This document shows positions 18,427-39,741 of a stretch of 64,000 nt of DNA, in pieces. Position numbers and translations under genes: made by a program. Source of the stretch: Dyadobacter sp. 676 (GTDB lineage: Bacteria > Bacteroidota > Bacteroidia > Cytophagales > Spirosomataceae); NCBI RefSeq assembly GCF_040448675.1, contig NZ_CP159289.1:6741001-6805000 (forward strand), written 5' to 3'. Position 1 is the stretch's first letter. Every line of letters starts with the position of its first letter. Under the pieces are notes generated by a model. That model was not told where the DNA came from. It did no database searches and saw only the letters and a program-made list of their open reading frames with translations.

Positions 18427-18774
18427 ATGAAAAGGCTGCTACTCCCGGCGCTCGTTACGACGGTATCCCTTGCGCTTTCGTGCTCGAAAAATGAGCCTGA
18501 ACCCAGATACGGGTGCAATGGCGACACGGAAATGACGATCACCGATGTACGCGCGGTTTACCACGGAAAGGGCTATTTTTCCTTCGATCTGGGCGCTCCC
18601 TACGGACAATCGTCAGCCTGGGCCTGCCAGGTCGACTCTGCCTGGGCAAAAAGCGACGATCCGAAGGTGCCCAACTACACGATCAGCGGGAATATAAAGA
18701 AAGTCCGTTTCGTTGGACCGACTGTGACAGTCGTGTATCCGCCGATAGAAATCACAGCCATCCGAAAAGACTAG
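18427..18774 (+). CDS. Small lipoprotein of unknown function
   Basis: A 115-residue secreted protein with a lipoprotein signal: MKRLLLPALVTTVSLALSC, lipid-anchored Cys at residue 19, followed by SKNEPEP. The mature part is short and beta-rich, with two further Cys (YGCNGD and AWACQV) that could form a disulfide. No family is recognised. It is divergent from the Nudix gene, and its stop codon overlaps the stop of the GNAT gene on the other strand by 4 bp. Confidence 0.75.
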   Translation: MKRLLLPALVTTVSLALSCSKNEPEPRYGCNGDTEMTITDVRAVYHGKGYFSFDLGAPYGQSSAWACQVDSAWAKSDDPKVPNYTISGNIKKVRFVGPTVTVVYPPIEITAIRKD

Positions 18775-19226
18775 TTCTTTAAAACCTTTTCGAAACAAAC
18801 GCTGTTTTCCACCCCCGCGTACTGCCCATAGTTGGGCGTACGCGTGTAGCCGTTCTTTTCATAGAGCCCGATAGCCTCCGGCTGACGTTTACCGGTTTCC
18901 AGCACGCATTTGCCGTAACCCATTTCAGATGCCCAGGTTTCCAGCTCACCCAGCACCCGGGTGGCAATGCCTCTGTTGCGGCCGGCGGGCGACACGTACA
19001 TCCTTTTTACCTCCATAGCATCGTCGCTGAACGCCTTGATGGCCCCGCAACCGACCGGCTGGTTATTTTCATAGCATACGACAACGTGCCTGATCCTGTC
19101 GATTTTGTTGAATTGTGCGTAAAAACCGTGATCTGCGCCGTCGCGTAGGGCAAGGTCGGCATCGAGAAGTTTCACGAGAGATTGAAAATCCGGGTCGTCG
19201 GAGTCGGTTCTTCTTAAATGGATCAT
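18771..19226 (-). CDS. GNAT-family N-acetyltransferase
   Basis: A 151-residue GNAT fold acetyltransferase. It shows strand beta4 MEVKRMYVSPAGRNRGIATR, with the acetyl-CoA pyrophosphate-binding R/Q-x-x-G-x-A pattern (RNRGIA), and the C-terminal ETGKRQPEAIGLYEKNGYTR, typical of small-molecule GNATs. Its start overlaps the MFS transporter stop by 4 bp (ATGA), so it is translationally coupled to and the last gene of the sugar-acid unit. It may modify a transported metabolite, but the substrate is not predictable. Confidence 0.88.
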   Translation of the reverse strand: MIHLRRTDSDDPDFQSLVKLLDADLALRDGADHGFYAQFNKIDRIRHVVVCYENNQPVGCGAIKAFSDDAMEVKRMYVSPAGRNRGIATRVLGELETWASEMGYGKCVLETGKRQPEAIGLYEKNGYTRTPNYGQYAGVENSVCFEKVLKN

Positions 19227-20518
19227 TGTAATTCTTCGAGTTCTACTACTTTGGGCGTCCTGGTGAGCCAGTGGATGATGAGCCAGGCCACAAGATAGGT
19301 AAAACCGCAGATCGTAAAAATGATGTTATAGCCTGCCTGGATATTTCCCGCAGCCTTGTAGGTGTCGAGCAGGCTGCCGATCAGGATCGGGAAAAGGATC
19401 CCGCCCACCGCGCCGGCCATCCCGCCTATGCCTACGACCGAACTTACTGCCTGCTTCGGAAAGAGATCGGACGGTAATGTGAACACGTTCGTCGCCCAGG
19501 CCTGGTGCAAGGCGACCGCCAGGCTGATCAATCCTACGGCCATCCAGACGCCGCTGGAAAACTGGATCAGTATCACCGACAGTTCACAGAACGCCAGGCA
19601 CAGCAGCACTGTTTTCCTTGCCTTCAAAGTGAGCCAGCCTCGTTTGATCAGCAGGGACGAAAGATAACCGCCTCCGATGCTGCCCACCGTAGTAGCCGTA
19701 TAAATCAGCATTAATTCGAAACTCGGCTTTTTGAGGTCCAGGTTGAAGGTAGAAGCGAAATAGGACGGCAACCAGAACAGGAAGAACCAGTAAATAGGGT
19801 CGATAAGACCTTTGCCGGTGATATAAGCCCAGGTTTGCGGAAACGTGAAGAGCTTCAACCATTTAACAGGCTGCTTTTCAGCCTCGTTTTCGTCCTGTTC
19901 CTGACCGCTCAGAATATAATGCAGTTCTTCCCGGCTCAACCGCTTTTGGTTGACGGGAATATCATAAAGGAACAGCCAGAAAACCAGCCATACAAAACCC
20001 AACGCGCCCGTGATCCAGAACACCTCCTGCCAGCCATAGTGGCTCAGTATCCAGGGTACAAGGAGCAATGCGACCACTACGCCGATGCTGGTCCCGGCGT
20101 TGAAAAGTCCCGTAGCCAGGGCCCGCTCCTTTTTCGGGAACCATTCGGCCACTGTTTTTACCGCCGCAGGATAATTACCGGCCTCGCCCAAACCTAATCC
20201 GACCCGTGCGACACCAAATCCGAAAGCACTCCGGGCAACGGCATGGAGCATTCCCGCGACACTCCAGAAAACAATTGTGAAAGCATAACCGAGCTTGGTG
20301 CCGATCTTGTCGATCAACCAGCCGAAAACCAGTAACCCGATGGCGTAGGCGGCCGTAAATGCCATGACTATGCGGGCAAAATCGGTTTCCGTCCATGCGA
20401 ATTCCTTCTCGAGAATAGGTTTCAGCAATCCTATGATCTGCCTGTCGAGGTAGTTGATAGTCGTGGCGAGAAACAGCAGGACCACGATGATCCAGCGGTA
20501 ATTCCTGATTTTCCCCAT
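19223..20518 (-). CDS. MFS transporter, anion:cation symporter type (ExuT/DgoT-like)
   Basis: A 431-residue inner-membrane protein with 12 predicted helices, of the ACS branch of the MFS, which imports hexuronates, galactonate, glucarate and similar sugar acids with protons. The N-terminal NYLDRQIIGLLKPILEKEF and LGLGEAGNYPAAVKTVAEWF are signature segments of the hexuronate/galactonate group. It follows KDPG aldolase by 3 bp and is coupled to the GNAT gene. In this locus its likely cargo is a sugar acid or 2-keto-3-deoxy sugar acid made in the periplasm by the exported dehydratases (inference). Confidence 0.93.
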   Translation of the reverse strand: MGKIRNYRWIIVVLLFLATTINYLDRQIIGLLKPILEKEFAWTETDFARIVMAFTAAYAIGLLVFGWLIDKIGTKLGYAFTIVFWSVAGMLHAVARSAFGFGVARVGLGLGEAGNYPAAVKTVAEWFPKKERALATGLFNAGTSIGVVVALLLVPWILSHYGWQEVFWITGALGFVWLVFWLFLYDIPVNQKRLSREELHYILSGQEQDENEAEKQPVKWLKLFTFPQTWAYITGKGLIDPIYWFFLFWLPSYFASTFNLDLKKPSFELMLIYTATTVGSIGGGYLSSLLIKRGWLTLKARKTVLLCLAFCELSVILIQFSSGVWMAVGLISLAVALHQAWATNVFTLPSDLFPKQAVSSVVGIGGMAGAVGGILFPILIGSLLDTYKAAGNIQAGYNIIFTICGFTYLVAWLIIHWLTRTPKVVELEELQ

Positions 20519-20521
20519 TGG

Positions 20522-21157
20522 TTAAGTGAGTTTTTGTACGAATTGAAGGAAATGTGCTTTCAAAGCGTCCCAGTTCTTGTCCCGGATCAGTTTTTTATCG
20601 AACAACTGCCCGCCTATCCCCAGCCCATTGGCTCCGGCTTTAAGAAAAGCAGTCATGTTTTCGAGGCTAACGCCCCCTGTGGGCAGCAATTTCAGCTGAT
20701 TCATGGGTGCTTTCAGATCTTTGATATAATCCGGTCCAAGTGCCGTGGCCGGGTAAATCTTCACCATCGTCGCTCCCAGCGACCATGCGTTGAAGATCTC
20801 CGTGGGTGTGTAGGCACCGGGAAACACCGGGATACCCTTTTTCACGCAGGATTTCACCACTTTTTTGTTCAAAACCGGCGTCACGATAAACTGCGCCCCC
20901 GCATCGAGCGCCAGTTCCAGGTCGTCTTTAGTACACACCGTTCCGGCTCCGATATTCAATCCGTAATGTTCGTTTTCCAGGGCGTAGCGGATCATGTCCG
21001 TCGCGCCGGGTGTGTTCATGGTGATTTCGACGGTGGTTAGCCCGGCTTCCCGGTAAATGGGCAGAATGCGTTTCACGTCCTCGGGCGAGACATTGCGGAT
21101 AATACCGACCAGCGGCGCCTTGTTGAACAACTCCCATGAAAATGTACACTCACTCAT
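20522..21157 (-). CDS. 2-keto-3-deoxy-6-phosphogluconate / 6-phosphogalactonate aldolase
   Basis: A 211-residue class I aldolase of the Eda/DgoA family that splits KDPG or KDPGal into pyruvate and glyceraldehyde-3-phosphate. Seen: the general base Glu in TVEITMNTPGATD near residue 45, the Schiff-base Lys in MVKIYPATALGPDY near 135, and the phosphate-binding LLPTGGVSLENM near 160. Its start overlaps the kinase gene by 4 bp, so the two steps are co-expressed. Eda and DgoA cannot be separated by eye. Linkage to a DgoK-type kinase and a galactonate-dehydratase-like enzyme favours the galactonate branch, though many such aldolases accept both. Confidence 0.93.
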   Translation of the reverse strand: MSECTFSWELFNKAPLVGIIRNVSPEDVKRILPIYREAGLTTVEITMNTPGATDMIRYALENEHYGLNIGAGTVCTKDDLELALDAGAQFIVTPVLNKKVVKSCVKKGIPVFPGAYTPTEIFNAWSLGATMVKIYPATALGPDYIKDLKAPMNQLKLLPTGGVSLENMTAFLKAGANGLGIGGQLFDKKLIRDKNWDALKAHFLQFVQKLT

Positions 21158-22162
21158 AAATTTGTTTTATTCAATGTTAAATTCTGATTTTCAAAAATCC
21201 GGATATGTCCTGCGGTTGCTGCACGGTCGACGATTTCTGAGGGAATGACCGTCGCCCTGCCGGATAGCCCCAGCGTTTCGATCGCGGCTTTGTACAATTG
21301 ATATAGATTATTCCCGCCGCATAGCACCAAATGCGCGTCGGTTTCCCGGGTAAGATCACGGATTTCGTAGCCAATCAGCAGCCCGCTGAGAAACATCCCG
21401 TTCTCCCGCTTATCCAGTAAATCAAAGAGCTGGTTGGTTCTTACTGTAAACAATGCATTTAAAATATTTCCCGAACCCGACTCGCGTATGCCTTTGCGGA
21501 AGGCGCTCGCGGCTTCTGCATTGAAATCGGGCTGGCGGTAATGGTCGATGGAATCTTTCAGAATGCTGTGATTTGCCATGAGGTTGAAAACCTCGCCCGT
21601 CATGAAAGTTTTGAAATCGATCAGTCGGCCATCACGGACAAACATATGTTTCGAATGCGTGCCCGGAAGGATAAATATCGCATCCCGACCGGAGAGGTCC
21701 ATGGCCGCGCCCAGGCCAATAAGTTGAGTCTCTTCGCCCCGCATGACATCGTGGTCGCTCCTTACACCGGAAATGAGGATTACCTCGTGGGGAAAGGCGT
21801 CCGTTTCGTCATAATGCTCCATTCCCAGATGGCTTCCGTCCACGGAAAAGGGCAAGCGGGCATAAGGCAGTTCCTGCATACCGATCGACGACGAGGCCAT
21901 ACCGGAAAGCACGATGGGCATTCCCCCCCGTGTCCAGGCCCGTCTGCCGGCTTAACGCCGCTATTTGCGTTGAAATGACCGAACGGTAATATTGTCCGCG
22001 CGGTACGCCCGTGGCCGCATGCTCCTCCTGCCAGGCATTGTAGACGGCACCGACGCCGTTCGGGGTTGTCACCTCGCCTACCACGTCGCGATCCGCTACA
22101 TTGACCAGCCTTAATCGGAACGAAGATGTTCCCCAGTCGCAACTTAGCAGGTGTTTTTTCAT
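21154..22162 (-). pseudogene. dgoK: 2-dehydro-3-deoxygalactonokinase, frameshifted
   Basis: DgoK phosphorylates 2-keto-3-deoxy-galactonate with ATP. The N-terminal frame has the phosphate-binding LLSCDWGTSSFRLRL. The rest has NGMFLSGLLIGYEIR and LVLCGGNNLYQLY and, in the middle, LPGTHSKHMFVRDG, all DgoK-like. The two parts are in different frames. At a seven-C run (21923-21929; G7 on the coding strand) the first frame reads LDTGGNAH and runs on to an unrelated end, while one G fewer gives LDTGGMPIVLSGMASS and a continuous protein of about 336 residues. It sits 9 bp after the PQQ dehydrogenase and overlaps the aldolase gene. If the shift is real, the pathway lacks its kinase; an assembly error is likelier. 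Confidence 0.85.
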
Positions 22163-22179
22163 CATTATCATTTAAGATT

Positions 22180-24390
22180 TTATGGCAATGCAAATGCGAT
22201 ATAATTTCCTCCCGGTTTTAAACCGTATCTGGTGCCGCCGGCTGCGATCGCAATATATTGCTTTCCGTCGACCATATAAGTGACCGGCGTCGCAAAACCG
22301 CCTGCCGGGAGTTTGTATTCCCACACAACCCTGCCGTTTTTCGTATCGAATGCCCTGAGTTTTTCGTCGTAGGTCGCGGCTATGAAAAGCAGGCCACCGG
22401 CTGTCACCAGCGGACCGCCATGGTTTTCGGTGCCCGTTGGCGGGATGCCTTGTTTCGTCAGTTCCGGATATTCGCCAAGTGTTACTTTCCAGCGGTATTC
22501 GCCCGTATTCATATCGATGGCATTCAATGTACCCCAGGGTGGCTTGATCGCCGGGTAATTGTCCGGGTCGCGGAACTGGACGTTGCCATTGTTGATGTAG
22601 GGTGGCAAATACGGGAACCGGGCATTGCCCTGGGCCGCGGTGGCCGTCGTTGGAGCGTGAATGTCGTCGGCAGCAGGTTTTGTTTCTGTTTTTAGCAGGA
22701 AATCGATAATGGCCGCGCGATCGGTTTTTGAGATGTGTTGAAAAGAAGGCATTCTGCCGCGCCCGGTTTCCAGCAATGCGCCCATCTGCCCGCGATTCAT
22801 TCGTTGGCCGATGTCTTTTAAAACCGGATAAGCCTGCGCAGCGGCTAATGTTGCGTTCTTTGCATCCATAGCATGGCATGCCGCACAATTCGTATTGAAC
22901 AATACCTGCCCCCGTGACAGCTCCTTACCTCCCCGGCCTTCCTTCGCGTCCCGCATTTTAAGCCACCAAAGCATATTGTTGCCATTTACATACACGACAC
23001 CCTCCGGGTCGGCCGCCGTACCGCCCCACTCCGCCCCTCCTCCGATTCCGTAGAGCAACCCTCCGAGTGTGTCGGGCGGTTGGTTTTTAGGCCCTTTGTT
23101 ACTGCTGCGAAACCGGTCGAGCACGTAGGCGTGCGCCTCGGGGGTGCGCGTCGTAATATCCGCCTCGGTTACTGTCTGGTAGGCAAACGGGGCAGGTTTG
23201 GAAGGCACCGGCTGGGTCGGCCAGGGCTGATCGCCGGGCAGCGGTATTGCCTTGGGCACGGGAACTTCCTTCACCGGAAAAAGCGGTTTCCCGGTATCAC
23301 GGTCAAAAAGAAAAATGTAGCCGTCCTTTGTTGCCTGGGCGACCGCATCGACGATCTTTCCGTTTCTCCGGACCCTGATCAGGTTCGGCGGGCAGGGAAT
23401 ATCGCGATCCCAGAGATCATGATGTACCGTCTGGAAGTGCCAGACGCGTTCGCCGGTTGCCGCATCGAGTGCGATTACGCAATTAGCGAACAAATTACTC
23501 CCTTTTCTTTCGGCGCCATAGAAATCCACCGACGGCGATCCGGTTCCGAGAAACACCATTCCGCGCTTTTCATCTACCACCATCCCGGCCCAGCAGTTGG
23601 CGCCGCCGAGCTTTTTGTAAGAATCCTTCGACCACGTTTCATAGCCATATTCGCCCGGCAAAGGAATCGTCCTGAACACCCACGCCACCTTACCCGTACG
23701 CACGTCGAATGCCCGGATATGCCCGGGCAATGCGTCTCCGCCTTCCGAAACGGAAGAGCCGGTTATAAGCAGGTTTTTGTAAATGACCCCAGGAGTCGTA
23801 TTGCGGATATTGAACTGGTAAGGGTCATAGCCGTAAGTTTCTTTGTCGCCCAGACCATCATGAAAATCAACCTCGCCATTTTTGCCAAAACTCTTGACCG
23901 GCACTCCTGTTTCCGCGTTCAAAGCGAATAAGGAAGGTCCCGCCGTAAAAAGAATACGTTTGTCCTTTCCATCCGACCAATACACGACTCCCCTCATCGG
24001 GTGAAACCGCGGCCGCCTGCCTTCGAACGGATCGAACTTCCAGAGCTCCCTGCCGGTGGCGGCTTCGAGCGCGAACACTTTCAACCGCGGCGTCGTGCCG
24101 TACATAATGCCATCGATCACGATAGGCTGGCATTGCATGTCCATCCCGCGTTCGCCGGGTTTGTTGTTTTCGCCGGTGTCGTATGTCCACGCAGGTTGCA
24201 GGTTTTTGACATTGTCCTTGTTGATCTGTGTCAGGATTGAATATCGGTTACCCGCATTATTGCCGCCATACACCGGCCAATCGGCGTTTTCGGAGTCGTC
24301 GGGGACGCGCCCGTCGTCGTTTGGCAGGGATAACGAACAAAAAGTTGCCGTTGCAAACAATGCCGATATGAGCGGAAGTCGGAGTGTCAT
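22180..24390 (-). CDS. PQQ-dependent sugar/alcohol dehydrogenase with inserted cytochrome c domain
   Basis: A 736-residue exported quinoprotein with signal peptide MTLRLPLISALFATATFCS. The N-terminal two thirds form PQQ-type beta-propeller repeats (WPVYGGNNAGNRYSILTQI, VFRTIPLPGEYGYETW, GTGSPSVDFYGAERKGSNLF). Around residues 500-580 a cytochrome c domain is inserted (heme site NCAACHAMD, probable Met ligand in GRGRMPSF), after which the propeller resumes (GTLNAIDMNTGEYRWKVTLG). Enzymes of this build oxidise aldoses or alcohols in the periplasm and pass electrons through heme to the respiratory chain. No PQQ-synthesis genes are in the window. The start at 24390 is chosen for the signal peptide. 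Confidence 0.92.
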   Translation of the reverse strand: MTLRLPLISALFATATFCSLSLPNDDGRVPDDSENADWPVYGGNNAGNRYSILTQINKDNVKNLQPAWTYDTGENNKPGERGMDMQCQPIVIDGIMYGTTPRLKVFALEAATGRELWKFDPFEGRRPRFHPMRGVVYWSDGKDKRILFTAGPSLFALNAETGVPVKSFGKNGEVDFHDGLGDKETYGYDPYQFNIRNTTPGVIYKNLLITGSSVSEGGDALPGHIRAFDVRTGKVAWVFRTIPLPGEYGYETWSKDSYKKLGGANCWAGMVVDEKRGMVFLGTGSPSVDFYGAERKGSNLFANCVIALDAATGERVWHFQTVHHDLWDRDIPCPPNLIRVRRNGKIVDAVAQATKDGYIFLFDRDTGKPLFPVKEVPVPKAIPLPGDQPWPTQPVPSKPAPFAYQTVTEADITTRTPEAHAYVLDRFRSSNKGPKNQPPDTLGGLLYGIGGGAEWGGTAADPEGVVYVNGNNMLWWLKMRDAKEGRGGKELSRGQVLFNTNCAACHAMDAKNATLAAAQAYPVLKDIGQRMNRGQMGALLETGRGRMPSFQHISKTDRAAIIDFLLKTETKPAADDIHAPTTATAAQGNARFPYLPPYINNGNVQFRDPDNYPAIKPPWGTLNAIDMNTGEYRWKVTLGEYPELTKQGIPPTGTENHGGPLVTAGGLLFIAATYDEKLRAFDTKNGRVVWEYKLPAGGFATPVTYMVDGKQYIAIAAGGTRYGLKPGGNYIAFALP

Positions 24391-24469
24391 CGGGTTTTGG
24401 TTAATAATTTGTATTTCAAAAAAAGTCGGGGAGTTTGGCAACGGTTTACAAACGCCGTTTTTTGGTTGT

Positions 24470-24650
24470 TACATACCTACGGCATTGACGCATTGGCACG
24501 GTTTGCATCAACTACCAATATTACGTGCCTGACGGCACCGGTTTTTAAAATGCCCGGTCGCCTTGGCGACGTAACATTGGTAGCCAATCCCGTCCAATGC
24601 ACATTTCGAAAAGCCCGCAGGGATGCAACAACAATTACGTGCTCCGTTAC
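24470..24650. repeat. Dispersed palindromic repeat element, copy 1
   Basis: A non-coding element of about 180 bp with nested inverted repeats. CTACCAATATTACGT (24512-24526) faces ACGTAACATTGGTAG (24569-24583), with a GC-rich inner part containing GCCTGACGGCACCGG. The right end has AGGGATGCAACAACAATTACG. The copy at 52350-52580 has the same order of parts. It lies between the second SusD gene and the PQQ dehydrogenase gene. It resembles the short CCTGACGG/ATATTGGTAG repeats scattered through Bacteroidota genomes (from memory, not checked). Confidence 0.7.
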
Positions 24651-26125
24651 AAATTCGGGTTAATGGATGTATCCGTATAAGGCAGCGGGAACCAATAATT
24701 GGCCTTCACAATCGGTTTGATCGGCTGCAAATCGTCGGGATTTTTCCTGGCATTGGCCTCCTCCACTCTTTCCAGGCGGACCAGATCGAACCAGCGGGTT
24801 CGTTCGCAAGCGAACTCCCACGCACGTTCCTGCACCACCTCGTCGGCAAACTGCGCGGCGGTAAGGCCGTCGCCGGGAGATAACGGCTTGGTGCCCGCAG
24901 CCCGTCCACGCAGGCGGATTTTATTCAATGCGTCGTAAGCGGCCTGGTCCGGACCACCTGTGCCCCGCGCTTTGGCTTCGGCATAAATGGTGAGCACATG
25001 TGCGTAGCGCATCATCACGGAAGGCAGCGAAATGCTCGAAGTCACGATATTGCCTTTGATATACCACTTCTGATAATAAGGATGTTTGGTCAGGCTGTTC
25101 TGCCAGGGAATCTTCGTCGCGCCCAGGCCGAACTCCGTACGGAAGGTAGCATCCTTGCGCGGGCCCGCGGGGAAATCGCGGAAAAAATTCAGTTCGGCAA
25201 ACATATCATCCCAACCGCCTTCCTCGCCGGGCATGGTCGTGTTCCCGTAAGTCGCATTTGCCGTACCGCTCCCTCCCAGGTAGCCGCTGATCTGAAATAC
25301 GGCCTCTTTGGTACCCGGCGAGGCCGGATCGTTCTCGAACACAGCCGCAAAGGTGGGCAACAGTTCAAAACCGTAAGTCCCCGCATTGTCGATTACTTCC
25401 TTCGCCTTGGCGGCGGCGAGGTCGTATTTGTCGGTTTGCTTTAATGGCCAGCCAGCCATGGTCAGGTAAACATCCGCCAAAAACGCTTTGGCGGCGCCTT
25501 TGTTAGGCCGTCCGGGATCGCGCTTGGTGTTCGGCAGGTTATTTTCCGCCACTTTCAAATCCGCCACAATCAGATCGTAGACTTCCTGCGGCGGCGATTT
25601 TTTGATAGTGAGCAGCTCATCGGAATATTCCCCTGCCAAAACCAGCGGAATATTGCCCCAGAAGCGCGTCAGCCAGTAGTAAGAGAATGCCCGGATGAAA
25701 TATGCCTCGCCGACGATGATATCGATCGTAGCTTTTGTGCCAACCGTCTTTTCCCAGTTGTTGATCACGTTGTTCGCGCCCTGAATGGCTTTGTAGCAGC
25801 CATTGTAAACGGCATTGGACCGCTGGTTGGTCGTCGAAACATTGAACTGGTCGAACTCCCGCCAGTCGGCCTTATTGCTCGCCGGGTGAGTGGTCACGTC
25901 GTCGGCGCCAAGCACCGCGGCATTGGCCGACGGATGCAGGAAACCGTACGCCCATTGATTCGCCAGCCCTTTGTAGGCACCTGTTAACGCCGATTCAAGC
26001 CCTTCCTGCGTCGATAGCACATTAGGCCCGTACAAAAGGCCGGTCGTATCCTCATCGAGATAATCGCTGCAACCCGCACCCACAAAAAGCAGGCCGCTCA
26101 GTAGAAGTATAGGGAGTGTTTTCAT
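24647..26125 (-). CDS. SusD/RagB-family nutrient-binding outer membrane lipoprotein
   Basis: A 492-residue SusD-type lipoprotein that caps the SusC channel at the cell surface and binds glycans or other nutrients. Signal peptide MKTLPILLLSGLLFVGAGC with the lipid-anchored Cys at residue 19, then SDYLDEDTTG. TPR-rich N-terminal part (YFIRAFSYYWLTRFWGNIPL) and the C-terminal SusD signature ERAWEFACERTRWFDLVRLE. It pairs with the SusC gene upstream (129-bp gap with repeats). The ligand is not predictable from sequence; the surrounding enzymes suggest a sugar, sugar acid or galactose/uronic-acid-containing oligomer. Confidence 0.95.
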   Translation of the reverse strand: MKTLPILLLSGLLFVGAGCSDYLDEDTTGLLYGPNVLSTQEGLESALTGAYKGLANQWAYGFLHPSANAAVLGADDVTTHPASNKADWREFDQFNVSTTNQRSNAVYNGCYKAIQGANNVINNWEKTVGTKATIDIIVGEAYFIRAFSYYWLTRFWGNIPLVLAGEYSDELLTIKKSPPQEVYDLIVADLKVAENNLPNTKRDPGRPNKGAAKAFLADVYLTMAGWPLKQTDKYDLAAAKAKEVIDNAGTYGFELLPTFAAVFENDPASPGTKEAVFQISGYLGGSGTANATYGNTTMPGEEGGWDDMFAELNFFRDFPAGPRKDATFRTEFGLGATKIPWQNSLTKHPYYQKWYIKGNIVTSSISLPSVMMRYAHVLTIYAEAKARGTGGPDQAAYDALNKIRLRGRAAGTKPLSPGDGLTAAQFADEVVQERAWEFACERTRWFDLVRLERVEEANARKNPDDLQPIKPIVKANYWFPLPYTDTSINPNL

Positions 26126-26129
26126 ATTG

Positions 26130-26252: not shown

Positions 26253-26254
26253 TC

Positions 26255-30624: not shown

Positions 30625-30628
30625 AGCG

Positions 30629-31870
30629 TTACCAGTTGTGGATGGAACCATCCGGACTTTTCAGGATCGGATGCGGGAATTTGGTTTTTTCTTTGACTTC
30701 CATGACGAAAGTCGCCCTTTTGGGATCGAATTTCACGCCCAGCCCTGGCGCGTCGTTGAGGTATAGCTTGCCGTTTTTGAAATTGATATAATCCTCGTTG
30801 AAATACGCCGGCCGCTCGGGCTCCCCTCCGCCCAGCTCCATCAAAGCCCGCGCGGGGCTGCTCGAACCCAGCACGTGCACCAAGGTGGCCGTTGCGAGAG
30901 GACCCGTAAAGTGCGGGATCATACCCACATAATGCGTCTCGCACATCGAAGCCAGCTTCCTGAACTCGCTGATGCCACCCGTGTTGGGCAATGTAAAGCG
31001 GGTGTAGTCGATCCAGCGGTTTTCGATGAACTCGTTGCTATCCCACCGGTCGCCGAACTGCTCCCCGACGGCAATAGGCACCTTGGTCATAGCGCGCACG
31101 GTTTTGTACACCGACGGGTTTTCCGAACGGATAATGTCCTCCACGAAATACGGTTCCAGCGATTCGAGGGCAGCGCAAATTTTCAATCCGTCCGTCATGT
31201 CAAAACGGGTATGGAGGTCGATAGCCCATTTACCGCCCCCGCCCACAGCTTCGTCGATGCGTTTGCAGAAGTCGATGGTTTTTTTCACATTCTCATAAAA
31301 ATCGAACGGCTGGTCCCCATTGCCGCCCGTCGGCCCGATCCGGTAGGCGCGCAGGCCGGCTTCGATGCAGTCCCTGGCCCGTTCTTCTTCCGTTTTGGCC
31401 TTCGAGGCACGAAAACCGGTGGCGTAGCATTCCACATAGTCGCGGGTGGCGCCTCCGAGCAACTCGTACACCGGCACATTCAATGCCTTGCCCTTGATGT
31501 CCCACAGCGCCATTTCAAGGGCTCCGAGGGCATGCAATTTTTCTCGGCCCGGCGGATAAAACATTCCCCGGTACACATTCTGCCAGATGTGCTCGATCCG
31601 GAACGGGTCCTCGCCGATCATCATTTGCGCGCATTGTTCGATCATGTCCTTCGAGCCTCCTTCGCCGATGCCGACGATCCCTCCGTCGGTTTCGATCTCC
31701 ACAATGCCCCGTGCCTGATTGAAAAGCGGTTTGTTATAACCCGGTGCGGCGTAATACCGGATTTTGGTAATCTTCATTTTAGACGCTGCACCGGCATTGA
31801 TTACCGGGAAGCCGGTTGCCATTGCGGCGGTGCCCAGGAATGCTGTTTTGATGAAATTTCTTCTTTGCAT
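30629..31870 (-). CDS. Tat-exported enolase-superfamily dehydratase (mandelate racemase subgroup)
   Basis: A 413-residue second enolase-superfamily enzyme. A strong twin-arginine signal MQRRNFIKTAFLGTAAMATG is followed by a capping domain and barrel. Active-site segments: AIDLHTRFDM (Asp and His), PYFVEDIIRSEN, PIAVGEQFGD (Glu residues) and GMIPHFTGPLATA (His). The D-x-H / E-D / G-E / H pattern is that of sugar-acid dehydratases, but the exact acid is unclear; it diverges from the DgoD-like neighbour. It precedes that gene by 4 bp and follows the LacI gene after a repeat-filled 146-bp gap, where a promoter for this sub-unit could sit. Confidence 0.88.
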   Translation of the reverse strand: MQRRNFIKTAFLGTAAMATGFPVINAGAASKMKITKIRYYAAPGYNKPLFNQARGIVEIETDGGIVGIGEGGSKDMIEQCAQMMIGEDPFRIEHIWQNVYRGMFYPPGREKLHALGALEMALWDIKGKALNVPVYELLGGATRDYVECYATGFRASKAKTEEERARDCIEAGLRAYRIGPTGGNGDQPFDFYENVKKTIDFCKRIDEAVGGGGKWAIDLHTRFDMTDGLKICAALESLEPYFVEDIIRSENPSVYKTVRAMTKVPIAVGEQFGDRWDSNEFIENRWIDYTRFTLPNTGGISEFRKLASMCETHYVGMIPHFTGPLATATLVHVLGSSSPARALMELGGGEPERPAYFNEDYINFKNGKLYLNDAPGLGVKFDPKRATFVMEVKEKTKFPHPILKSPDGSIHNW

Positions 31871-31904
31871 GATGGTACTTGGTATGTCGGGAATTGTGTC
31901 TAGT

Positions 31905-32014
31905 GTCATGTGTGGTCAGAAGTTGTCATGGGTAGTCAGGGGGTCATGGGTAGTCAAGGGGTCATGGGTGGTCAGGAGTTGTCATGGGTGGCCAGGGGGC
32001 ATGGGTGGTCAGGA
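31905..32014. repeat. Tandem array of 18-20 bp GTCATGGGTGGTCAGG units
   Basis: Six degenerate units run without spacers, each starting GTCATG (or GCATG): GTCATGTGTGGTCAGAAGTT, GTCATGGGTAGTCAGGGG, GTCATGGGTAGTCAAGGG, GTCATGGGTGGTCAGGAGTT, GTCATGGGTGGCCAGGGG, then a shorter last one. It fills the gap between the LacI stop and the second dehydratase start. A related word lies at 9950-9970 on the other strand. Confidence 0.85.
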
Positions 32015-32016
32015 AA

Positions 32017-33051
32017 TCACCCGTTCATTGCTGATTTGATTTTCGACGACTCCCGGGCTATCAGCTTGGCTTCCATTAATATCTGTTTCATTCCTTCCTC
32101 CGGGTTTTTCAGTTTCTTCAATAAAAATTCAACCGCCGTTTTGCCCAGCATTTCCAACGGCTGCCGCACGTAGGTAATGGGACAATAGTAAAGGTCAAAA
32201 ACCTCGGCCTGACCGAAACTGACTATCGCCAGGTCGGACGGGACTTTAAGCCGCAGCTCGTTAATATACTTCAACGCATTGATAGCCAGACCATAAGTAG
32301 CAAAAATCATCGCTTCTACGCGGTTCGCGGAGGCCAGTATCTCGTCGATAGCCGTACGCACTTCCTTGTCCATCGTCTCAAAATGCACTTCTTTCAGCCA
32401 CGACTCGTGAAACTCGATATCATTGTCGCGCAAGGCGTGTTTGTAGCCTCTGATCCGCTCCTCCATATGGTACATATTCGACCGGTAGGCCATGATGCCA
32501 ATCCTCGAATAGCCGCTCCTGATCAGGTGGACGCCGGCATCGTAGGAGGCCTTGTAATTGTTGGTAGCCACAAAATCCGTCTGTATTTCGGGAAAGTGGC
32601 GGTCCAGCAATACAAAAGGAATGTTCCGCTCTTTAAGATAATGCACCTGATTTTCGGAACCTTCGCAAGAGACGATGATGAAGCCATCGACCTGCCGGTT
32701 GATCAGCACATTCAACAAGTCCCACGATTTTTCGGCATGCTCGTCGCAGCTGCCGATAATCACCGTATAACCGTTCTTTTTGGCCTCGTCCTCCACTACG
32801 CGGGCGATATTGGCGAAAAAGGGGTTGGAAATGTCGGCGATAATGAGACCGATCGTATGGGTCCTGCCACTTCTAAGGCTTTTGGCAAGATGGTTGGGCT
32901 GATAGTTCATTTCCTTCGCTATCTGCCTGATCTTTTGCGCGATAGCCTCCCCTACCCTGGTTTCTTTTTCCTTTCCGTTAAGGACATAGGAAACCAGGGC
33001 GGTTGAAACGCCTGCCTGCTGTGCGATATCTTTGAGCGATACTTTTTTCAT
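32017..33051 (-). CDS. LacI-family transcriptional regulator
   Basis: A 344-residue regulator. N-terminal helix-turn-helix SLKDIAQQAGVSTALVSYVL with hinge NHLAKSLRSG, then a periplasmic-binding-protein-like sensor domain (THTIGLIIADISNPFFANIA, FIIVSCEGSE, PITYVRQPLEMLGKTAVEFL). It should bind a sugar or sugar-acid effector and a CG-centred palindrome. Its start overlaps the ManD-like gene by 4 bp, so it is inside the locus it probably controls. Candidate operators of the right kind lie before the first SusC gene (39363-39376 and 39519-39532). Repressor or activator role is not decided by sequence. Confidence 0.94.
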   Translation of the reverse strand: MKKVSLKDIAQQAGVSTALVSYVLNGKEKETRVGEAIAQKIRQIAKEMNYQPNHLAKSLRSGRTHTIGLIIADISNPFFANIARVVEDEAKKNGYTVIIGSCDEHAEKSWDLLNVLINRQVDGFIIVSCEGSENQVHYLKERNIPFVLLDRHFPEIQTDFVATNNYKASYDAGVHLIRSGYSRIGIMAYRSNMYHMEERIRGYKHALRDNDIEFHESWLKEVHFETMDKEVRTAIDEILASANRVEAMIFATYGLAINALKYINELRLKVPSDLAIVSFGQAEVFDLYYCPITYVRQPLEMLGKTAVEFLLKKLKNPEEGMKQILMEAKLIARESSKIKSAMNG

Positions 33052-34397
33052 GGACGTATAAGCGTACCGTCGAATTTTCTTACCTGCCAGTTCGACTTGG
33101 TGCTAATGGGAAATTTGCCAGCGGCTTTTTCGTCAATGTCCACGCCTATGCCCGGCACTTCGTTCACCGACATGTAGCCGTTTTTCATGGTCGGGCAGCC
33201 AGAGAACACTTCCAGGGTTTTGTCGTTGAACTGCACGGCTTCCTGGATACCAAAATTCCAGACCGCGAGATCGATATGCGCATGGGCCGAATGACCGACC
33301 GGCGACACGTCGCCGGGACCGTGCCAGGCCGTTTTTACATTGAACCATTCCCCTAGCCGCGCCACCTTCATCGCCGGCGTAATACCACCGATCTGCGACA
33401 CGTGAATGCGGATGTAGTCGAACCACTGGTTCACCATCGGTTCCAGGAACTCATTGACGTTATTAAACAACTCACCCATTGCCAGCGGCACCGTCGTACT
33501 CTGGCGGAGCAGCTTGAACCACTTCATGTTCTCCGGCGAAAACGGGTCCTCGATAAAGAATGGCCGGTAATCCTCCAACCTTTTGATCATATTGATCGCG
33601 TTCATCGGCTGCACGCGTTCATGGATATCGTGCAACAGTTCTACCTCCTCGCCGCACTGCTTACGCACGGTTTCAAACAAGATCGGGATCGCTTTCAAAT
33701 AAGCATTTTCGTCCATATAGTTGTCCGTCGCACCGCCGAAACCGGCCTCCTTGAAATCAGGCTTCCGGGTTGTGCTTCCCACGGCACCGTAACCGCCCTG
33801 CTGAATGCGGATGTAACGATAACCCTGCTCCTGAATTTTCTTTACGCTTTCCACCGTTTCTTCCGGCGTGCGGCCGTTCGCATGCGTATAGCACGGCACG
33901 GCGAAGCGTGATTTGCCCCCCAGCAACTGGTAAAGCGGCATACCGGCACGTTTTCCTTTAATGTCCCAAAGCGCCTGATCGAGGCCGCTCAATGCATTGT
34001 TCAGCACCGGGCCGTTGCGCCAGTAGGAGCTTACATAGGCTGCATTCCACATGTCTTCGATGTTGTCGACGTCCCGGCCCGCGCAAAACTCGTTGAGATA
34101 GGTATTGATCGCCACCAGCACCACTTCGGCCCGCTGCGTAAAGGTGGCACAGCCCAGGCCGTAAAGTCCTGGTTCGGAGGTTTCTACCTTCACGACAATG
34201 AGGTTGGAACCTTGCGGGGCCGTCGCAATTGCGCGAACGCTTTTGATCGTCACGGGTTTCATGGCCCTGGCATAATGCGGTGTTTCGCGATCTGCCCGGG
34301 CATCGGAGATGCCCCCGAACAGGCCCAGGATTCCGGCCGAACCGCTCAGTCCAAGGGCTTTCATCGTCTCCCGACGACTCATTCCGTTCTCTTTCAT
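33048..34397 (-). CDS. Tat-exported enolase-superfamily dehydratase, D-mannonate dehydratase (ManD)-like
   Basis: A 449-residue protein of the ManD/RspA-type enolase superfamily; ManD members dehydrate D-mannonate and/or D-gluconate to 2-keto-3-deoxy-gluconate. Hallmarks: LLHDIHERVQPMNAI (metal Asp, His), FFIEDPFSPEN, PLAMGELFNN, and AWHGPGDVSPVGHSAHAH, the ManD C-terminal signature. The N-terminus (MSRRETMKALGLSGSAGILG from residue 6) is a Tat-type signal; the known ManD enzymes lack one. Met at 34382 is an equally good start. It lies 34 bp after the first SusD gene and overlaps LacI by 4 bp. Confidence 0.9.
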   Translation of the reverse strand: MKENGMSRRETMKALGLSGSAGILGLFGGISDARADRETPHYARAMKPVTIKSVRAIATAPQGSNLIVVKVETSEPGLYGLGCATFTQRAEVVLVAINTYLNEFCAGRDVDNIEDMWNAAYVSSYWRNGPVLNNALSGLDQALWDIKGKRAGMPLYQLLGGKSRFAVPCYTHANGRTPEETVESVKKIQEQGYRYIRIQQGGYGAVGSTTRKPDFKEAGFGGATDNYMDENAYLKAIPILFETVRKQCGEEVELLHDIHERVQPMNAINMIKRLEDYRPFFIEDPFSPENMKWFKLLRQSTTVPLAMGELFNNVNEFLEPMVNQWFDYIRIHVSQIGGITPAMKVARLGEWFNVKTAWHGPGDVSPVGHSAHAHIDLAVWNFGIQEAVQFNDKTLEVFSGCPTMKNGYMSVNEVPGIGVDIDEKAAGKFPISTKSNWQVRKFDGTLIRP

Positions 34398-34431
34398 GGA
34401 TATCAGGTTATAGGTTAAAGAATCGTTGTCG

Positions 34432-35973
34432 TCATTTTTTGTCCCACCACACCCTGGTATTCAGATCATTGGGTCCCTGGCGCGCATTGGCTTCGTTCAC
34501 ATTCTGGAGGTTCACGACGATCTCGCTATCCGGATACGGCATCCGGCGAATGAAGTCCTCCTTGATTTCGGAACCGGGGTACGGGTTCTTTTTCAATGCA
34601 GGGAAGCCGCTACGCCGGAAATTTGCCCACGACTCGTTGCCGTCCAGGAAAGTAGCTACCCAGTATTGCGTATTGATCTGCTCCAACGCTTTTGCATCGT
34701 CCAGCGGATGCGCTTTCAGATAGGCCTGAATGGCATCTTCCCGGATCGCCGCGCCGGGGTCGTAAAGTGCCATTTGTTCGAGATTGGCCCGGATGCCGGC
34801 TGCAAAATAGTCGGCCGCCTTACCCGATACCCAGCCACGTGTAGCGGCTTCCGCCAGCAAAAGCTGCACCTGAGCATACGTGATGTGGAACTCGGGCGCG
34901 TCGAGTTTCAAGACTGTTTTGAGATTAATCTGGCTGAAATCCCACAGACTTACCACGCCATTTTCGGCCAGGACGCTGTTGATCGTTACGTCGTTATAGC
35001 CCATCGGCATGCCGATCTGCACTTTCGGATCGGACGAGGCGCGTTCGGAAACCTGCTCGGGGCCGCCTTTCGCGCCCACGTACCGGACGGCGAACACTGG
35101 TAAGCGAGGGTCGTTGTTCTCTTTGAGGTAATTCACAAATGGCGCTGCCAGGTAAAAATTGGTCTTCTCGCGGGCCGCCAGGTGATTGGCGATATAATTG
35201 TTGTAGATCGCGGTATGCCGGATAATCGAGTTGTCGGCATTGCTTTCGAAAACGCCGCCAGCTACGGCTTTCGCAACATAGCTTTTGGCCAGCGCCGGAT
35301 CTACTTTCGAAAGCCGCATCCCGGCCCGTAGCATCAGCGAGTAGCCGAGTTTCTTCCAGCGGGCCACGTCGCCGCCGTACAGGATGTCGGTGGTAACCGC
35401 TTCCTGCTTGGTGTTCAGAGCGCCTGAGGCCTCTTCGAGTTCTTTGAGAATATCCTTGTAAATGGCTTCCTGCGGATCGTATTTAGGCCGGATAATCTCG
35501 TTGATATAGCCCTGCCCCGCTTCGAAATAGGGGATATCTCCATAGGTGTCGGTCAATATCATGAACGCATATGCTTTCCAGATCCTCGCTGCGTGGTAAA
35601 TGTTGGATTGCAGCGGGTCGTTTTTGGTCTGGTCGGTTACCGCCACGAGCTGCTTGATCACATTCCGGTAAAAATTGACCCACACCAGCGGCGTGTTGGA
35701 ATTGTTGATCTGGTTGTAATTACCACCGGAAAGCGAGCTGCCGTAAGGGGTGATTACCTGTTGAACAATACCAAAATTGTAGCAAAGCATCCCGAGCGTG
35801 GAAACACCGTCGAGGTAGGTGGTGGCGATAATGGCTTTGTTCAGGATCAGCGATGGCGCCAGGGAGGTCGGGTCAACCTTGTTGGTATTGATCTCGTCGA
35901 ATCCCTCGTCGCACGACGTCATCAGCGACAGCGACACGAGGACCGCGAGCATGTATTTCGATGTAGCTTTCAT
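34432..35973 (-). CDS. SusD-like lipoprotein (second SusD subfamily)
   Basis: A 513-residue surface lipoprotein. Signal MKATSKYMLAVLVSLSLMTSC, Cys at residue 21, then DEGFDEINTNKVDPT, the start typical of the SusD-like subfamily found with this type of SusC. Helical TPR region with IWKAYAFMILTDTYGDIPY; a C-terminal NRRSGFPALKKNPYPGSE-like segment. The start at 35973 is chosen for the lipoprotein signal; the frame upstream runs into the SusC gene. It follows SusC by 11 bp. It belongs to a different subfamily from the SusD at 24647, so the locus may take up two different ligands. Confidence 0.93.
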   Translation of the reverse strand: MKATSKYMLAVLVSLSLMTSCDEGFDEINTNKVDPTSLAPSLILNKAIIATTYLDGVSTLGMLCYNFGIVQQVITPYGSSLSGGNYNQINNSNTPLVWVNFYRNVIKQLVAVTDQTKNDPLQSNIYHAARIWKAYAFMILTDTYGDIPYFEAGQGYINEIIRPKYDPQEAIYKDILKELEEASGALNTKQEAVTTDILYGGDVARWKKLGYSLMLRAGMRLSKVDPALAKSYVAKAVAGGVFESNADNSIIRHTAIYNNYIANHLAAREKTNFYLAAPFVNYLKENNDPRLPVFAVRYVGAKGGPEQVSERASSDPKVQIGMPMGYNDVTINSVLAENGVVSLWDFSQINLKTVLKLDAPEFHITYAQVQLLLAEAATRGWVSGKAADYFAAGIRANLEQMALYDPGAAIREDAIQAYLKAHPLDDAKALEQINTQYWVATFLDGNESWANFRRSGFPALKKNPYPGSEIKEDFIRRMPYPDSEIVVNLQNVNEANARQGPNDLNTRVWWDKK

Positions 35974-35984
35974 GGTTGCCGGGA

Positions 35985-38900
35985 TTAGAATTTGACATTG
36001 AGATTGAAACCGATGCTGCGGGTGGGCGGCAGGCCGGGCCAGAAATCGAGACCCGTGGCATTGTCCGACGAGTTGAGCACCTCCTCCGGATCCATATTCT
36101 CGGTCCATTTCTTGATTACGAGCACATTGTTCGCAACGGCACTCAGCCTGAGCCCTTTTACAAACGACTTCTCGGGCAGCAATTTGCTCAGGTCATAGCC
36201 CAGTGTAAGTTGCCGAAGTTTCCAGAAACCCGCATTCGAGACGAAATCTTCATTGATACCCAGCGGGTTAATGGATTCATAAAAGGGCTGAACAGCCGCC
36301 TTTGTCTGATTCACCTCGCCGTCGGGGTTCACGCCGTTGCCGATCACATACCCCTCGGCCCGGCCCGGTAGCGTGCGTTTCGACAGGCCGTGACGCATGT
36401 AGTTGATGTTCCGGCCGGCGATCATCTTGTGCCCCAGCTTGAAATCCACCAGCGCCGAAAGCATAATGCCTTTGTAATTGAACGTGTTGGTTATACCGCC
36501 AAAATACTTCGGCAACGCATTGCCGACGTTCACCAGCGTATTGTTTCTCAAAGGCATTCCACTGTTTTTATCAAACACCTGACGGCCTTGCGCGTCGCGC
36601 AGGTACGTGAATGTGTAAAGCTGACCGAGCGGTTTTCCGACCACCATATTCAGTGTCCGGCCACCGCCGCCGCCGACGGTGATGACCGTATCTTTCTCTG
36701 CCAGGCCCAGTTTCAGCACCTTTGAGGTATTGTACGACACATTGAAACTCACATCCCAGGTGAAATCCTTTGTTTTTACCGGAGAACCCGTCAGCAAGAG
36801 CTCGATACCCTTGTTCATGCTCCGGCCGACGTTAATGAGCTGCGCCGTGTAGGAAGAAGCGTCGGATATCTGGGCGGCGAGGATCTGATCGTCCGTTGTT
36901 TTATGATAATAGGTCAGATCGAAGCCCAGCAAATTATTGAACAGCTTCATTTCCAGGCCCGCTTCCGCCTCCTTGATCCGCAGCGGGCGCAGGTTCCTGT
37001 TCGGCACTATCGATGCGTTGATCCCTCCCACCGGCACCAGTTGACCAGTCGGGTTCGGGAACGAGTTGTTGTCCACCGCATAGTACAAAGCATTCGAGTA
37101 GGGATTTACATTATCCGACCCTACCTGCGCGTAGGCCGCGCGCAATTTACCGAACGTAATCCATGCGGGCAGGTTCGGGAAGGCTTGCGAGAAGATGAAG
37201 CTACCGGTTACCGAGGGGTACAGGATACTGCGGTTGTCGGGGGCAAGTGTTGAAAACCAGTCGTTTCGCGCAGTTACGTTCAAATAAATGAACTCTTTCC
37301 ACGATATGGTCGCCGCTCCGTACAGCGAGTTGATTTTCTTTTCCGAAAGGCTGTACAACGGGTTTTTGACGCGGCCGTTCATCACGGTGTAAAGATTCGG
37401 CTGAACAAAGTCCTGCACCGTCACGCTGTTATAATCCATCCGCGCGTAACGCTGGTTCCCTCCGAGTGTCACATCGACACCGATGTTGCCGAAGGTACGG
37501 TTGCCGCCGAGGATAAAGTCGAGGTTGCGCTCGGTATTGCGGCGTACATCCTGTGTAAATGAGCCGTTTACATAACCGACAGGCGCCTTGGCGATCGGTG
37601 CATAGCCGTTCGGGATATTATAATCCTGGTTACGTACGTAGAAATCCTGCGCCGCGCGAAGTTGGAGGTAAAGCCAGTCGGTAAACTGGTACTTCAATGC
37701 GACATTCCCGAAAAGGCGGTCACGCGTGATGTTCTCGAAATGGTGGCTGAGCGAATAATAGGGATTATTTCTCACCAGAAACCTCGAAAAGACGAATTCG
37801 TCACCGTTGGGGAGCGTCTGGTTTTGTTTCAACGCCTCAAAAGGCATCGAGTTGGCCAGGGTAAAAATGACAGTGGAAGTAGCAAAATCCTGCGTATCTA
37901 CCTGCGGCGGGTTTACATTCTTTTCCTTTGAATAATTCACATTGCCGAATGCCGTAAGCCGCTTCGAAATATTTTGCGTGAAACCGAGGTTCACGACCTT
38001 GCGGTTAAACTTGTTGTTTTCGACGATCCCGCGGTTATCGGTGTTCGCCAGTGAAAGACTGAAACCGCCGTTGGGGCCATTGTTGGAAACGGTAATGGTG
38101 TTGGTCATGTTCGTACCGACGCGGTAAAATTTCCTTACACGGCCGCGCACCGGCTCGTAAGGCCAGGTTTCGTTATCGAAAAGGATCTGCGTCATGCCGG
38201 GTTCGAACTTCTCGCCGAAACTCCACACGCCGGAAGTGGGTTTTTCGGTAGTTGGCCGCTTTCCGCCCTCCCCCTGCCCGTACTCATATTGAAAATCGGT
38301 GAAATCCAGGGGTGTGTCGGTCGTGAAGTTCAGGTTGTAATCCAGCCCGATCCCCTTGCCCGTGCCGCGGTTTTTGGTCGTGATCATTACTACGCCGTCT
38401 TTCGCACGCGAACCGTAAAGTGCCGCTGCCGTGGCGCCTTTCAGCACGGTCATCGACTCGATATCGTCCGGATTGATACTCGAAAGCCCGTCGCCGCCAT
38501 CGGAACTATTGGCGGCCCTCGGACCATAATCGCCGCCTCCCGCGAAGTTGGAATTATCGATCGGTACTCCGTTTACGACAATCAGCGGGTTGTTCTGTCC
38601 CGAAAACGACGACTGCCCGCGAATGCGTATCTTGGCCGTACCACCGGGGCCCGTCGAGAGCGAGGATATGTTTACGCCTGCCATTTTGCCCTGCAATGAA
38701 CTTACCACGTTGGGCGTGCGGTTGGTGGAAATCTGGTCGGAAGTCACGGTGGCCGTCGCATAACCAAGCGTTTTGGCTTCCCGCTTGATACCCAGCGCGG
38801 TAACAACCACTTCCGTGAGGTTTTTCGACTCCTGTACCAGTTGGATATCGATGACCGTCCGCGAACCGACGGCTACCGTCTGGCTCACATAACCAATGAA

Positions 38901-39119
38901 CGAGAAAACAAGACTGGCGTTGGCGGGCACGTCGAGGGCATATTTACCTTCCGAATCCGTAACGGTGCCCTGGGACGTACCGCTGATCAGGATATTCACA
39001 CCCGGAAGCGGCTCCTTGTTTTCGCCGGTCACGCTACCCGTGATCCGGCTACTCTGGGCGAAAACCGCGTTGCAACAAAATAGCAGTAGCAACGCAGCAA
39101 TCGTAAAACAGTTCTTCAT
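35985..39119 (-). CDS. SusC/RagA-family TonB-linked outer membrane channel
   Basis: A 1044-residue TonB-dependent SusC homologue. Signal peptide MKNCFTIAALLLLFCCNAVFAQ, carboxypeptidase-like domain (ITGSVTGENKEPLPGVNILI), plug with VVTALGIKREAKTLGYATAT and the signature LYGSRAKDGVVMITTKNRG, then a barrel ending SIGFNLNVKF. It heads the 20-kb minus-strand locus and has a 622-bp upstream region with operator-like palindromes. It pairs with the SusD-like gene 11 bp downstream. The substrate is not inferable from sequence alone. Confidence 0.96.
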   Translation of the reverse strand: MKNCFTIAALLLLFCCNAVFAQSSRITGSVTGENKEPLPGVNILISGTSQGTVTDSEGKYALDVPANASLVFSFIGYVSQTVAVGSRTVIDIQLVQESKNLTEVVVTALGIKREAKTLGYATATVTSDQISTNRTPNVVSSLQGKMAGVNISSLSTGPGGTAKIRIRGQSSFSGQNNPLIVVNGVPIDNSNFAGGGDYGPRAANSSDGGDGLSSINPDDIESMTVLKGATAAALYGSRAKDGVVMITTKNRGTGKGIGLDYNLNFTTDTPLDFTDFQYEYGQGEGGKRPTTEKPTSGVWSFGEKFEPGMTQILFDNETWPYEPVRGRVRKFYRVGTNMTNTITVSNNGPNGGFSLSLANTDNRGIVENNKFNRKVVNLGFTQNISKRLTAFGNVNYSKEKNVNPPQVDTQDFATSTVIFTLANSMPFEALKQNQTLPNGDEFVFSRFLVRNNPYYSLSHHFENITRDRLFGNVALKYQFTDWLYLQLRAAQDFYVRNQDYNIPNGYAPIAKAPVGYVNGSFTQDVRRNTERNLDFILGGNRTFGNIGVDVTLGGNQRYARMDYNSVTVQDFVQPNLYTVMNGRVKNPLYSLSEKKINSLYGAATISWKEFIYLNVTARNDWFSTLAPDNRSILYPSVTGSFIFSQAFPNLPAWITFGKLRAAYAQVGSDNVNPYSNALYYAVDNNSFPNPTGQLVPVGGINASIVPNRNLRPLRIKEAEAGLEMKLFNNLLGFDLTYYHKTTDDQILAAQISDASSYTAQLINVGRSMNKGIELLLTGSPVKTKDFTWDVSFNVSYNTSKVLKLGLAEKDTVITVGGGGGRTLNMVVGKPLGQLYTFTYLRDAQGRQVFDKNSGMPLRNNTLVNVGNALPKYFGGITNTFNYKGIMLSALVDFKLGHKMIAGRNINYMRHGLSKRTLPGRAEGYVIGNGVNPDGEVNQTKAAVQPFYESINPLGINEDFVSNAGFWKLRQLTLGYDLSKLLPEKSFVKGLRLSAVANNVLVIKKWTENMDPEEVLNSSDNATGLDFWPGLPPTRSIGFNLNVKF

Positions 39120-39697: not shown

Positions 39698-39741
39698 CTC
39701 TGAAATCTGCCAACGGTTTCCCCAAATCGGTCCATCCTGTC

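Follow-up and report, generated by a model that had tools for sequence, protein, structure and literature searches.

The window analysed here is a 64,000-nt stretch of Dyadobacter sp. 676, part of a single-contig genome of 7.28 Mb, and it contains a sugar-acid cassette that is real and conserved among relatives. The cassette probably encodes a LacI-controlled split pathway of the De Ley–Doudoroff type, in which dehydration would take place in the periplasm and the keto-deoxy acid would be imported. Judged from their N-termini, its three dehydratases (DgoD-like, ManD-like, and a third protein, U) are very likely exported, and the split topology is likely. Sugars or aldonates would enter the periplasm via two SusC/SusD pairs, and a secreted pyrroloquinoline quinone (PQQ)-cytochrome c dehydrogenase would oxidize aldoses to aldonolactones or aldonates, passing the electrons to the respiratory chain. 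Dehydratases exported by the twin-arginine translocation (Tat) route would then convert aldonates into 2-keto-3-deoxy-aldonates in the periplasm, the DgoD-type enzyme acting on galactonate and the ManD-like protein and U on epimeric or related aldonates. A carrier of the major facilitator superfamily (MFS) would bring in the keto-deoxy acid, from which the kinase DgoK and an Eda-type aldolase would produce pyruvate and glyceraldehyde 3-phosphate in the cytoplasm.

Export-type N-termini and active sites of the dehydratases

All three dehydratases have a twin arginine (RR) near the N-terminus followed by a hydrophobic stretch, with cleavage-type endings recognized by eye. N-termini were scored with a detector that requires RR within the first 35 residues and then a charge-free hydrophobic stretch. 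Among the 120 best homologues of each protein, taken from 7975 (DgoD-like), 4336 (U), and 7998 (ManD-like) matches, 119, 117, and 114 were positive, respectively. Seven of the 10 negative homologues started after the signal, two had the RR slightly further in, and one (P0234) carried Ser in place of the first Arg. The detector was also positive in 1.5% of shuffled N-termini and in 9 of the 89 open reading frames (ORFs) ≥200 aa long within the own-genome DNA sampled, the three dehydratases included; it is not Tat-specific, and at least two of these nine resemble other signal types. Set against these base rates, the conservation in homologues led us to reject chance as the source of the RR motifs. 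TatC was found in the genome (173 bits, cut-off 132.7), and for Bacteroidetes PMC3827258 reports TatC as well as the SRRXFLK motif. In DgoK and the aldolase, the domains lie close to the start, and visual inspection revealed no signal.

To place the exported enzyme among its relatives, the best 80 of 589 confirmed stretches, retrieved with an exported query alignment, were labelled from their N-termini. The script flagged 35 loci, of which L068 was removed as an out-of-gene reading, and eight loci missed by the script threshold (L022, L028, L050–L053, L055, and L056) were added by eye, which brought the exported set to 42 loci and left 38 as non-exported. The tree was built by a quick method from the barrel part alone and held 79 loci plus the window, L071 being left out after a mapping failure. 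The 43 exported rows formed one side of a single branch, with an SH-aLRT value of 94, just below the tool's mark of 95, and export state required one change on the tree, a number as low as which was reached in none of 500 shuffles. By record titles, the exported rows belong to Bacteroidota, Acidobacteriota, Verrucomicrobiota, Planctomycetota, Omnitrophota, and three Alphaproteobacteria, with many metagenome bins among them, and the cytosolic rows to Pseudomonadota, Bacillota, Chloroflexota, Actinomycetota, haloarchaea, and others. The exported rows have their nearest neighbours in two cytosolic rows from Chloroflexota, and either the exported or the cytosolic side may be ancestral. Exported DgoD may be an old, separate DgoD branch of several phyla in which the committed dehydration has moved outside the cytoplasm, the cell importing 2-keto-3-deoxy acids (perhaps usable by few neighbours) and, where PqqC is lacking, borrowing the PQQ of others; we hold this broader proposal tentatively, at slightly less than an even chance.

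The active-site motifs are intact in the sequences of all three dehydratases. With positions numbered in the longer ORFs rather than from the assigned starts, they are DFH 235, EE 261, GE 286, and the PH 336 region in the DgoD-like protein; DLH 231, the ED 257 region, GE 282, and the PH 332 region in U; and DIH 257, the ED 283 region, the GE 308 region, and WH 358 in the ManD-like protein. We take these motifs to supply the metal-binding residues and the catalytic histidines known from acid-sugar dehydratases of the enolase superfamily. By pattern search, which does not compare aligned columns, each occurred in 106–120 of the 120 best homologues of its protein.

The cassette, its relatives, and its control

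The cassette lies wholly on the minus strand (Table 1) and is transcribed in the order SusC2, SusD2, ManD-like, LacI, U, DgoD-like, SusC1, SusD1, PQQ dehydrogenase, DgoK, aldolase, and MFS importer. Intergenic gaps range from −4 to 205 bases when the assigned starts are used; those of DgoD-like, U, ManD-like, and SusD2 were placed inside longer program-made ORFs. An earlier note on this DNA had listed these genes on one strand, and the ORFs and family models bear the list out. Its left boundary at 18771 probably does not hold, as the GNAT gene there (18771–19226) appears to lie outside the conserved cassette; visual inspection of Runella L014 showed no GNAT-type ORF following the importer. The label "polysaccharide-utilisation-type" suits the two SusC/SusD pairs, which are those of polysaccharide utilisation loci, but the Pfam scan found no glycoside hydrolase or polysaccharide lyase among the cassette genes. 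The naming of the dehydratases fared unevenly: the DgoD-like protein scored 442 bits against the galactonate dehydratase model NF010624 (cut-off 311), but the ManD-like protein stayed under the cut-off of NF043051. A DgoK-type kinase is likewise present by its match to PF05035 (185 bits), but its frame is interrupted in this assembly.

Among the remaining genes, the aldolase reached 181 bits against TIGR01182, above the cut-off of 156, and the importer 252 bits against TIGR00893 (named "D-galactonate transporter"), below the cut-off of 395. The PQQ dehydrogenase matched PF01011 above its cut-off and scored 457 bits against TIGR03074, the membrane glucose/quinate model (cut-off 833); it is nearer to this glucose/quinate/shikimate model than to the alcohol model and under both cut-offs. 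In the same genome, L120 (G000:C1:6259000-6269500) holds a second group of SusD-like, PQQ dehydrogenase, and Tat-type ManD genes.

Table 1. Features of the cassette and its upstream region in the window
Feature	Position	Strand	Remarks
LacI-type operator-like palindrome	39519..39532	.	exact match to TTTAAWCGWTTAAA, upstream of SusC2
Second operator-like palindrome	39363..39376	.	one mismatch to TTTAAWCGWTTAAA, upstream of SusC2
SusC/RagA-type TonB-dependent transporter (SusC2)	35985..39119	-	Plug, CarbopepD_reg_2
SusD-like lipoprotein (SusD2)	34432..35973	-	PF12771, PF12741
ManD/gluconate-dehydratase-like enolase-superfamily protein	33048..34382	-	twin-arginine N-terminus SRRETMK; nearest solved relatives 3t6c, 3tw9
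LacI-family regulator	32017..33051	-	overlaps ManD-like gene by 4 bases
U, acid-sugar-dehydratase-type enolase without assigned family	30629..31870	-	twin-arginine N-terminus QRRNFIK
Galactonate dehydratase (DgoD-type)	29377..30624	-	twin-arginine N-terminus SRRAAIQ; NF010624
SusC/RagA TonB-dependent transporter (SusC1)	26255..29245	-	
SusD-like lipoprotein (SusD1)	24647..26125	-	
Secreted PQQ dehydrogenase with inserted cytochrome c	22180..24441	-	one CxxCH haem motif; PF01011
DgoK 2-keto-3-deoxy-galactonokinase	21154..22171	-	frame interrupted; PF05035
KDPG/KDPGal aldolase (Eda/DgoA type)	20522..21157	-	PF01081, TIGR01182
MFS importer, galactonate/hexuronate type	19223..20518	-	TIGR00893 is the best NCBIfam model

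A core of LacI, U, SusC2/SusD2, DgoD, and DgoK was common to all eight cassette loci compared (three of Dyadobacter, one each of Runella and Larkinella, two of Spirosoma, and one of Catalimonadaceae), and a one-off assembly was therefore rejected. The ManD-like, PQQ dehydrogenase, and aldolase genes were each found in seven of the eight, the importer in six, and SusC1/SusD1 in five, with the gene order rearranged among the loci; one of the two loci lacking the importer ends before its expected position. U, DgoD, and ManD-like genes are adjacent in Lunatimonas L018. The DgoD-like protein of the window is 97–98% identical to those of Dyadobacter BHUBP1, CY261, and 50-39, which are among its best matches.

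Some neighbouring genes of the related loci were also recorded. In Larkinella L015 (1–2481), the FAD and 2Fe-2S subunits of a molybdopterin-type dehydrogenase lie divergently beside LacI, the latter subunit with a Tat-like start; this is perhaps an alternative oxidase for the same step. In genome G004, L125 (13964–14917), close to the exported DgoD, encodes an SMP-30/gluconolactonase-family protein (PF08450) with an export-type start, a possible periplasmic lactonase. An extra protein of related loci, for which the window has no counterpart, gave no sequence match in a profile search of the PDB. A fold search with a model built from nine sequences (a model from three was poor, with a pLDDT of 49.5) supports a galactose mutarotase fold; the fold lists also hold YidC periplasmic domains, an NDH-complex subunit, and glycoside hydrolase/phosphorylase domains, below or among the mutarotases.

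An operator pattern, TTTAAWCGWTTAAA, was first spotted in two places, the SusC2 upstream regions of the window and of Runella L014, and was counted afterwards. With at most one mismatch, 14 sites were present in 10 cassette loci (210 kb), compared with one in the 1.59 Mb of 111 other loci. This background excludes a further 12 loci that overlap cassettes or the own locus, and the loci from Dyadobacter do not count as independent of the window. All 14 sites, spread over eight of the 10 loci, precede SusC2, LacI, U, or DgoD, and none lies within a recognized cassette gene. Across the whole window, four matches with up to two mismatches were found against 1.24 expected. Because these sites stand before the dehydratase, LacI, and SusC2 genes, they support a single LacI regulon for the dehydratase part, and the candidate explanation that this part lacks common control was rejected. 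Neither SusC1 nor the PQQ gene had an operator in front of it, and this downstream part is tied to the regulon by gene order only.

The palindromes share their intergenic region with a divergent gene pair at 39613–41894 on the plus strand, read from the translations as a histidine kinase-like protein and a LytTR-like response regulator. A degenerate tandem repeat (31905–32013; a unit of ~18 bases, 5.9 copies) fills the gap between LacI and U, and in Dyadobacter bucti L013 a repeat-like ORF separates ManD-like from LacI. Elsewhere in the window, 864–1733 encodes a xylose-isomerase-like TIM barrel protein (PF01261) with a twin-arginine N-terminus. A GntP-family (gluconate-type) permease lies on the opposite strand at 6545–7849, ~11 kb from the cassette, followed by a D-serine dehydratase-domain gene and an M19 dipeptidase gene.

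Where dehydration would take place

We surveyed 118 genomes of the order to which Dyadobacter belongs, calling exported DgoD at E ≤ 1e-130. Exported DgoD was present in six genomes and DgoK in 16; all six genomes with exported DgoD had DgoK, compared with 10 of the other 112 (Fisher p = 2.4e-6, kinship not corrected). The two genes lay within ~10 kb of each other in four of the six; in G017 they were on separate contigs. Proteins close to the cytosolic DgoD (75–100% identity) also occurred in six of the 118 genomes, and the Dyadobacter sp. 676 genome alone held both types. Three genomes of one genus had the classical cytosolic set, with Eda, a signal-less DgoD, and DgoK together and a lactonase adjoining in L102; no homologue above 60 bits of the PQQ, SusC/SusD, LacI, or MFS genes was found near these sets.

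The dehydratases may be exported and yet stand beside the main route: the aldonate would be taken up and other, cytoplasmic enzymes would dehydrate it, while the exported ones would do a side job, such as acting on glycan-joined aldonates or removing periplasmic aldonate. We regard this as unlikely. The cytosolic DgoD of the own genome would fit it, as would the modelling of MFS carriers of this type as galactonate transporters. However, in five of the six genomes with exported DgoD, no close cytosolic DgoD was found although DgoK was present (the unrelated IlvD/Edd-type dehydratases were not searched). Moreover, exported DgoD stood alongside DgoK in all eight cassette loci, and in three of 27 exported loci outside recognized Bacteroidota (L024, L028, and L029; some contigs end too early to judge) it was directly followed by an Eda homologue. 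In L028, a sodium:solute symporter precedes DgoD, with a PQQ dehydrogenase further upstream. Because in five of the six genomes with exported DgoD no other close DgoD was found and the product kinase is present, import of the keto-deoxy acid is the simplest reading.

Another explanation is that the product is not keto-deoxy-galactonate, at least one of the enolases acting on other acids (e.g., 3,6-anhydrogalactonate, fuconate, or xylonate) and DgoK and Eda serving a different sugar. U scored below every listed NCBIfam cut-off, and in L103 and L105–L109 of the order DgoK and Eda lie near weak enolase homologues (26–32% identity), an arrangement reminiscent of anhydrogalactose routes. The DgoD-like protein nevertheless lies 131 bits above the galactonate dehydratase cut-off, and its motifs were found in 120 of its 120 best homologues, making this explanation distinctly improbable. 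It is hardly credible that the N-termini are not working signals and that the dehydratases are cytosolic like the known ones, as the Tat profile scores under the cut-off might suggest, given the RR extension in nearly all 360 homologues and in none of the cytosolic-branch rows (by detector and eye), the presence of TatC, and the adjoining SusC/SusD proteins and PQQ dehydrogenase (which has a c-type haem motif), all members of extracytoplasmic families.

The earlier note had placed the first steps of the pathway in the periplasm, with a twin-arginine signal on every dehydratase, and had named loss of RR in close homologues or separate regulation of the parts as grounds against it. The RR motifs were confirmed in the N-termini and are kept in the homologues; a common operator was found at the dehydratase, LacI, and SusC2 promoters but not before SusC1 or the PQQ gene. 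Together with the co-occurrence of the genes, these results favour periplasmic dehydration, but it is only partly supported, since export, substrates, and transport are what we infer from them and since several observations weigh on the other side. The cytosolic DgoD of the own genome makes cytosolic dehydration possible there. DgoK has no single ORF, its ATP-binding N-terminus and the remainder lying in different frames split at a 7-base homopolymer (21923–21929), and this copy was the only match when a second DgoK was sought in the genome. PqqC was not found in the genome (PQQ genes besides PqqC were not searched); the search gave no match in its 14 built-in control genomes, hence four extra positive controls were added, all of which were positive. 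The ManD-like protein reached 400 bits against the D-mannonate dehydratase model NF043051, whose cut-off is 550, and its nearest solved chains are named only putative dehydratases. Against the Tat profiles TIGR01409/PF10518, U scored 16.1 bits (cut-off 16.7) and the ManD-like protein 14.1, and the DgoD-like protein had no match. DgoK is known for the galacto epimer; if gluconate or mannonate gave keto-deoxy-gluconate, either DgoK would have to tolerate it or a different kinase would be required. The distribution is patchy, with exported DgoD in four of nine sampled genomes of the family, and neither it nor DgoK was found in another genome of the window's genus. In G004, exported DgoD is far from DgoK and unlinked to it. 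Within the available stretches, Larkinella L015 had no PQQ or ManD-like match and Catalimonadaceae L017 no aldolase or importer match, and the operator was not found in L021 or L111.

The interruption of DgoK is either an assembly error at the homopolymer or the loss of this step in the strain. A conserved frameshift device was rejected, as the frame was continuous in all eight relatives examined. With the frame broken here, family-level conclusions rest on these relatives.

Comparison with known systems

If periplasmic dehydration is correct, a textbook sugar-acid pathway would be divided across the inner membrane, its dehydratase step lying in the periplasm, and 2-keto-3-deoxy acids would be suggested as extracytoplasmic intermediates. 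In several phyla, many of the proteins that databases name galactonate or mannonate dehydratase would be exported rather than cytoplasmic, genome models would change in what is imported and where reducing equivalents go, and the pathway would be tied to PQQ from other bacteria. Isolates of Spirosoma, Runella, and Dyadobacter allow direct testing.

The De Ley–Doudoroff pathway of Pseudomonas saccharophila and E. coli consists of DgoD, DgoK, DgoA/Eda, and DgoT. The cassette resembles it in the dehydratase, kinase, aldolase, and transporter families and in the chemistry that these would perform, and differs in its Tat-type signals on the dehydratases, secreted PQQ dehydrogenase, two extra dehydratases, SusC/SusD uptake, and LacI control. 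The dehydratase of the classical pathway has no export signal, whereas all three here carry conserved twin-arginine N-termini that are predicted to direct export. In Gluconobacter, quinate oxidation is combined with 3-dehydroquinate dehydratase; this route likewise places a dehydratase after PQQ oxidation, but its substrates differ and its dehydratase is unrelated. For the ManD-like protein, the subgroup of 3t6c and 3tw9, which we take to be D-mannonate/D-gluconate dehydratases, shares the sequence family and the active-site motifs; the ManD-like protein differs in carrying a twin-arginine N-terminus before the matched region and in falling below the NF043051 cut-off.

We found no description of exported galactonate or mannonate dehydratases in the open-access literature, as covered by titles and the starts of abstracts, with most subscription journals outside coverage. 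Our verdict is that the cassette is genuine and conserved and represents an exported variant of the De Ley–Doudoroff pathway, none having been found described in that literature. The textbook placement of the pathway is given in PMC12076931, and oxidation on the periplasmic side is described for acetic acid bacteria in PMC9171043. Periplasmic conversion of some sugars into acids, which are then imported, has a precedent ("On the pull", Thomas 2017, as cited in PMC12076931). Those systems, as described there, share with the cassette a periplasmic conversion followed by acid import; however, they take up the sugar acid by a TRAP-type system, whereas the cassette would dehydrate it first and import the product by an MFS carrier.

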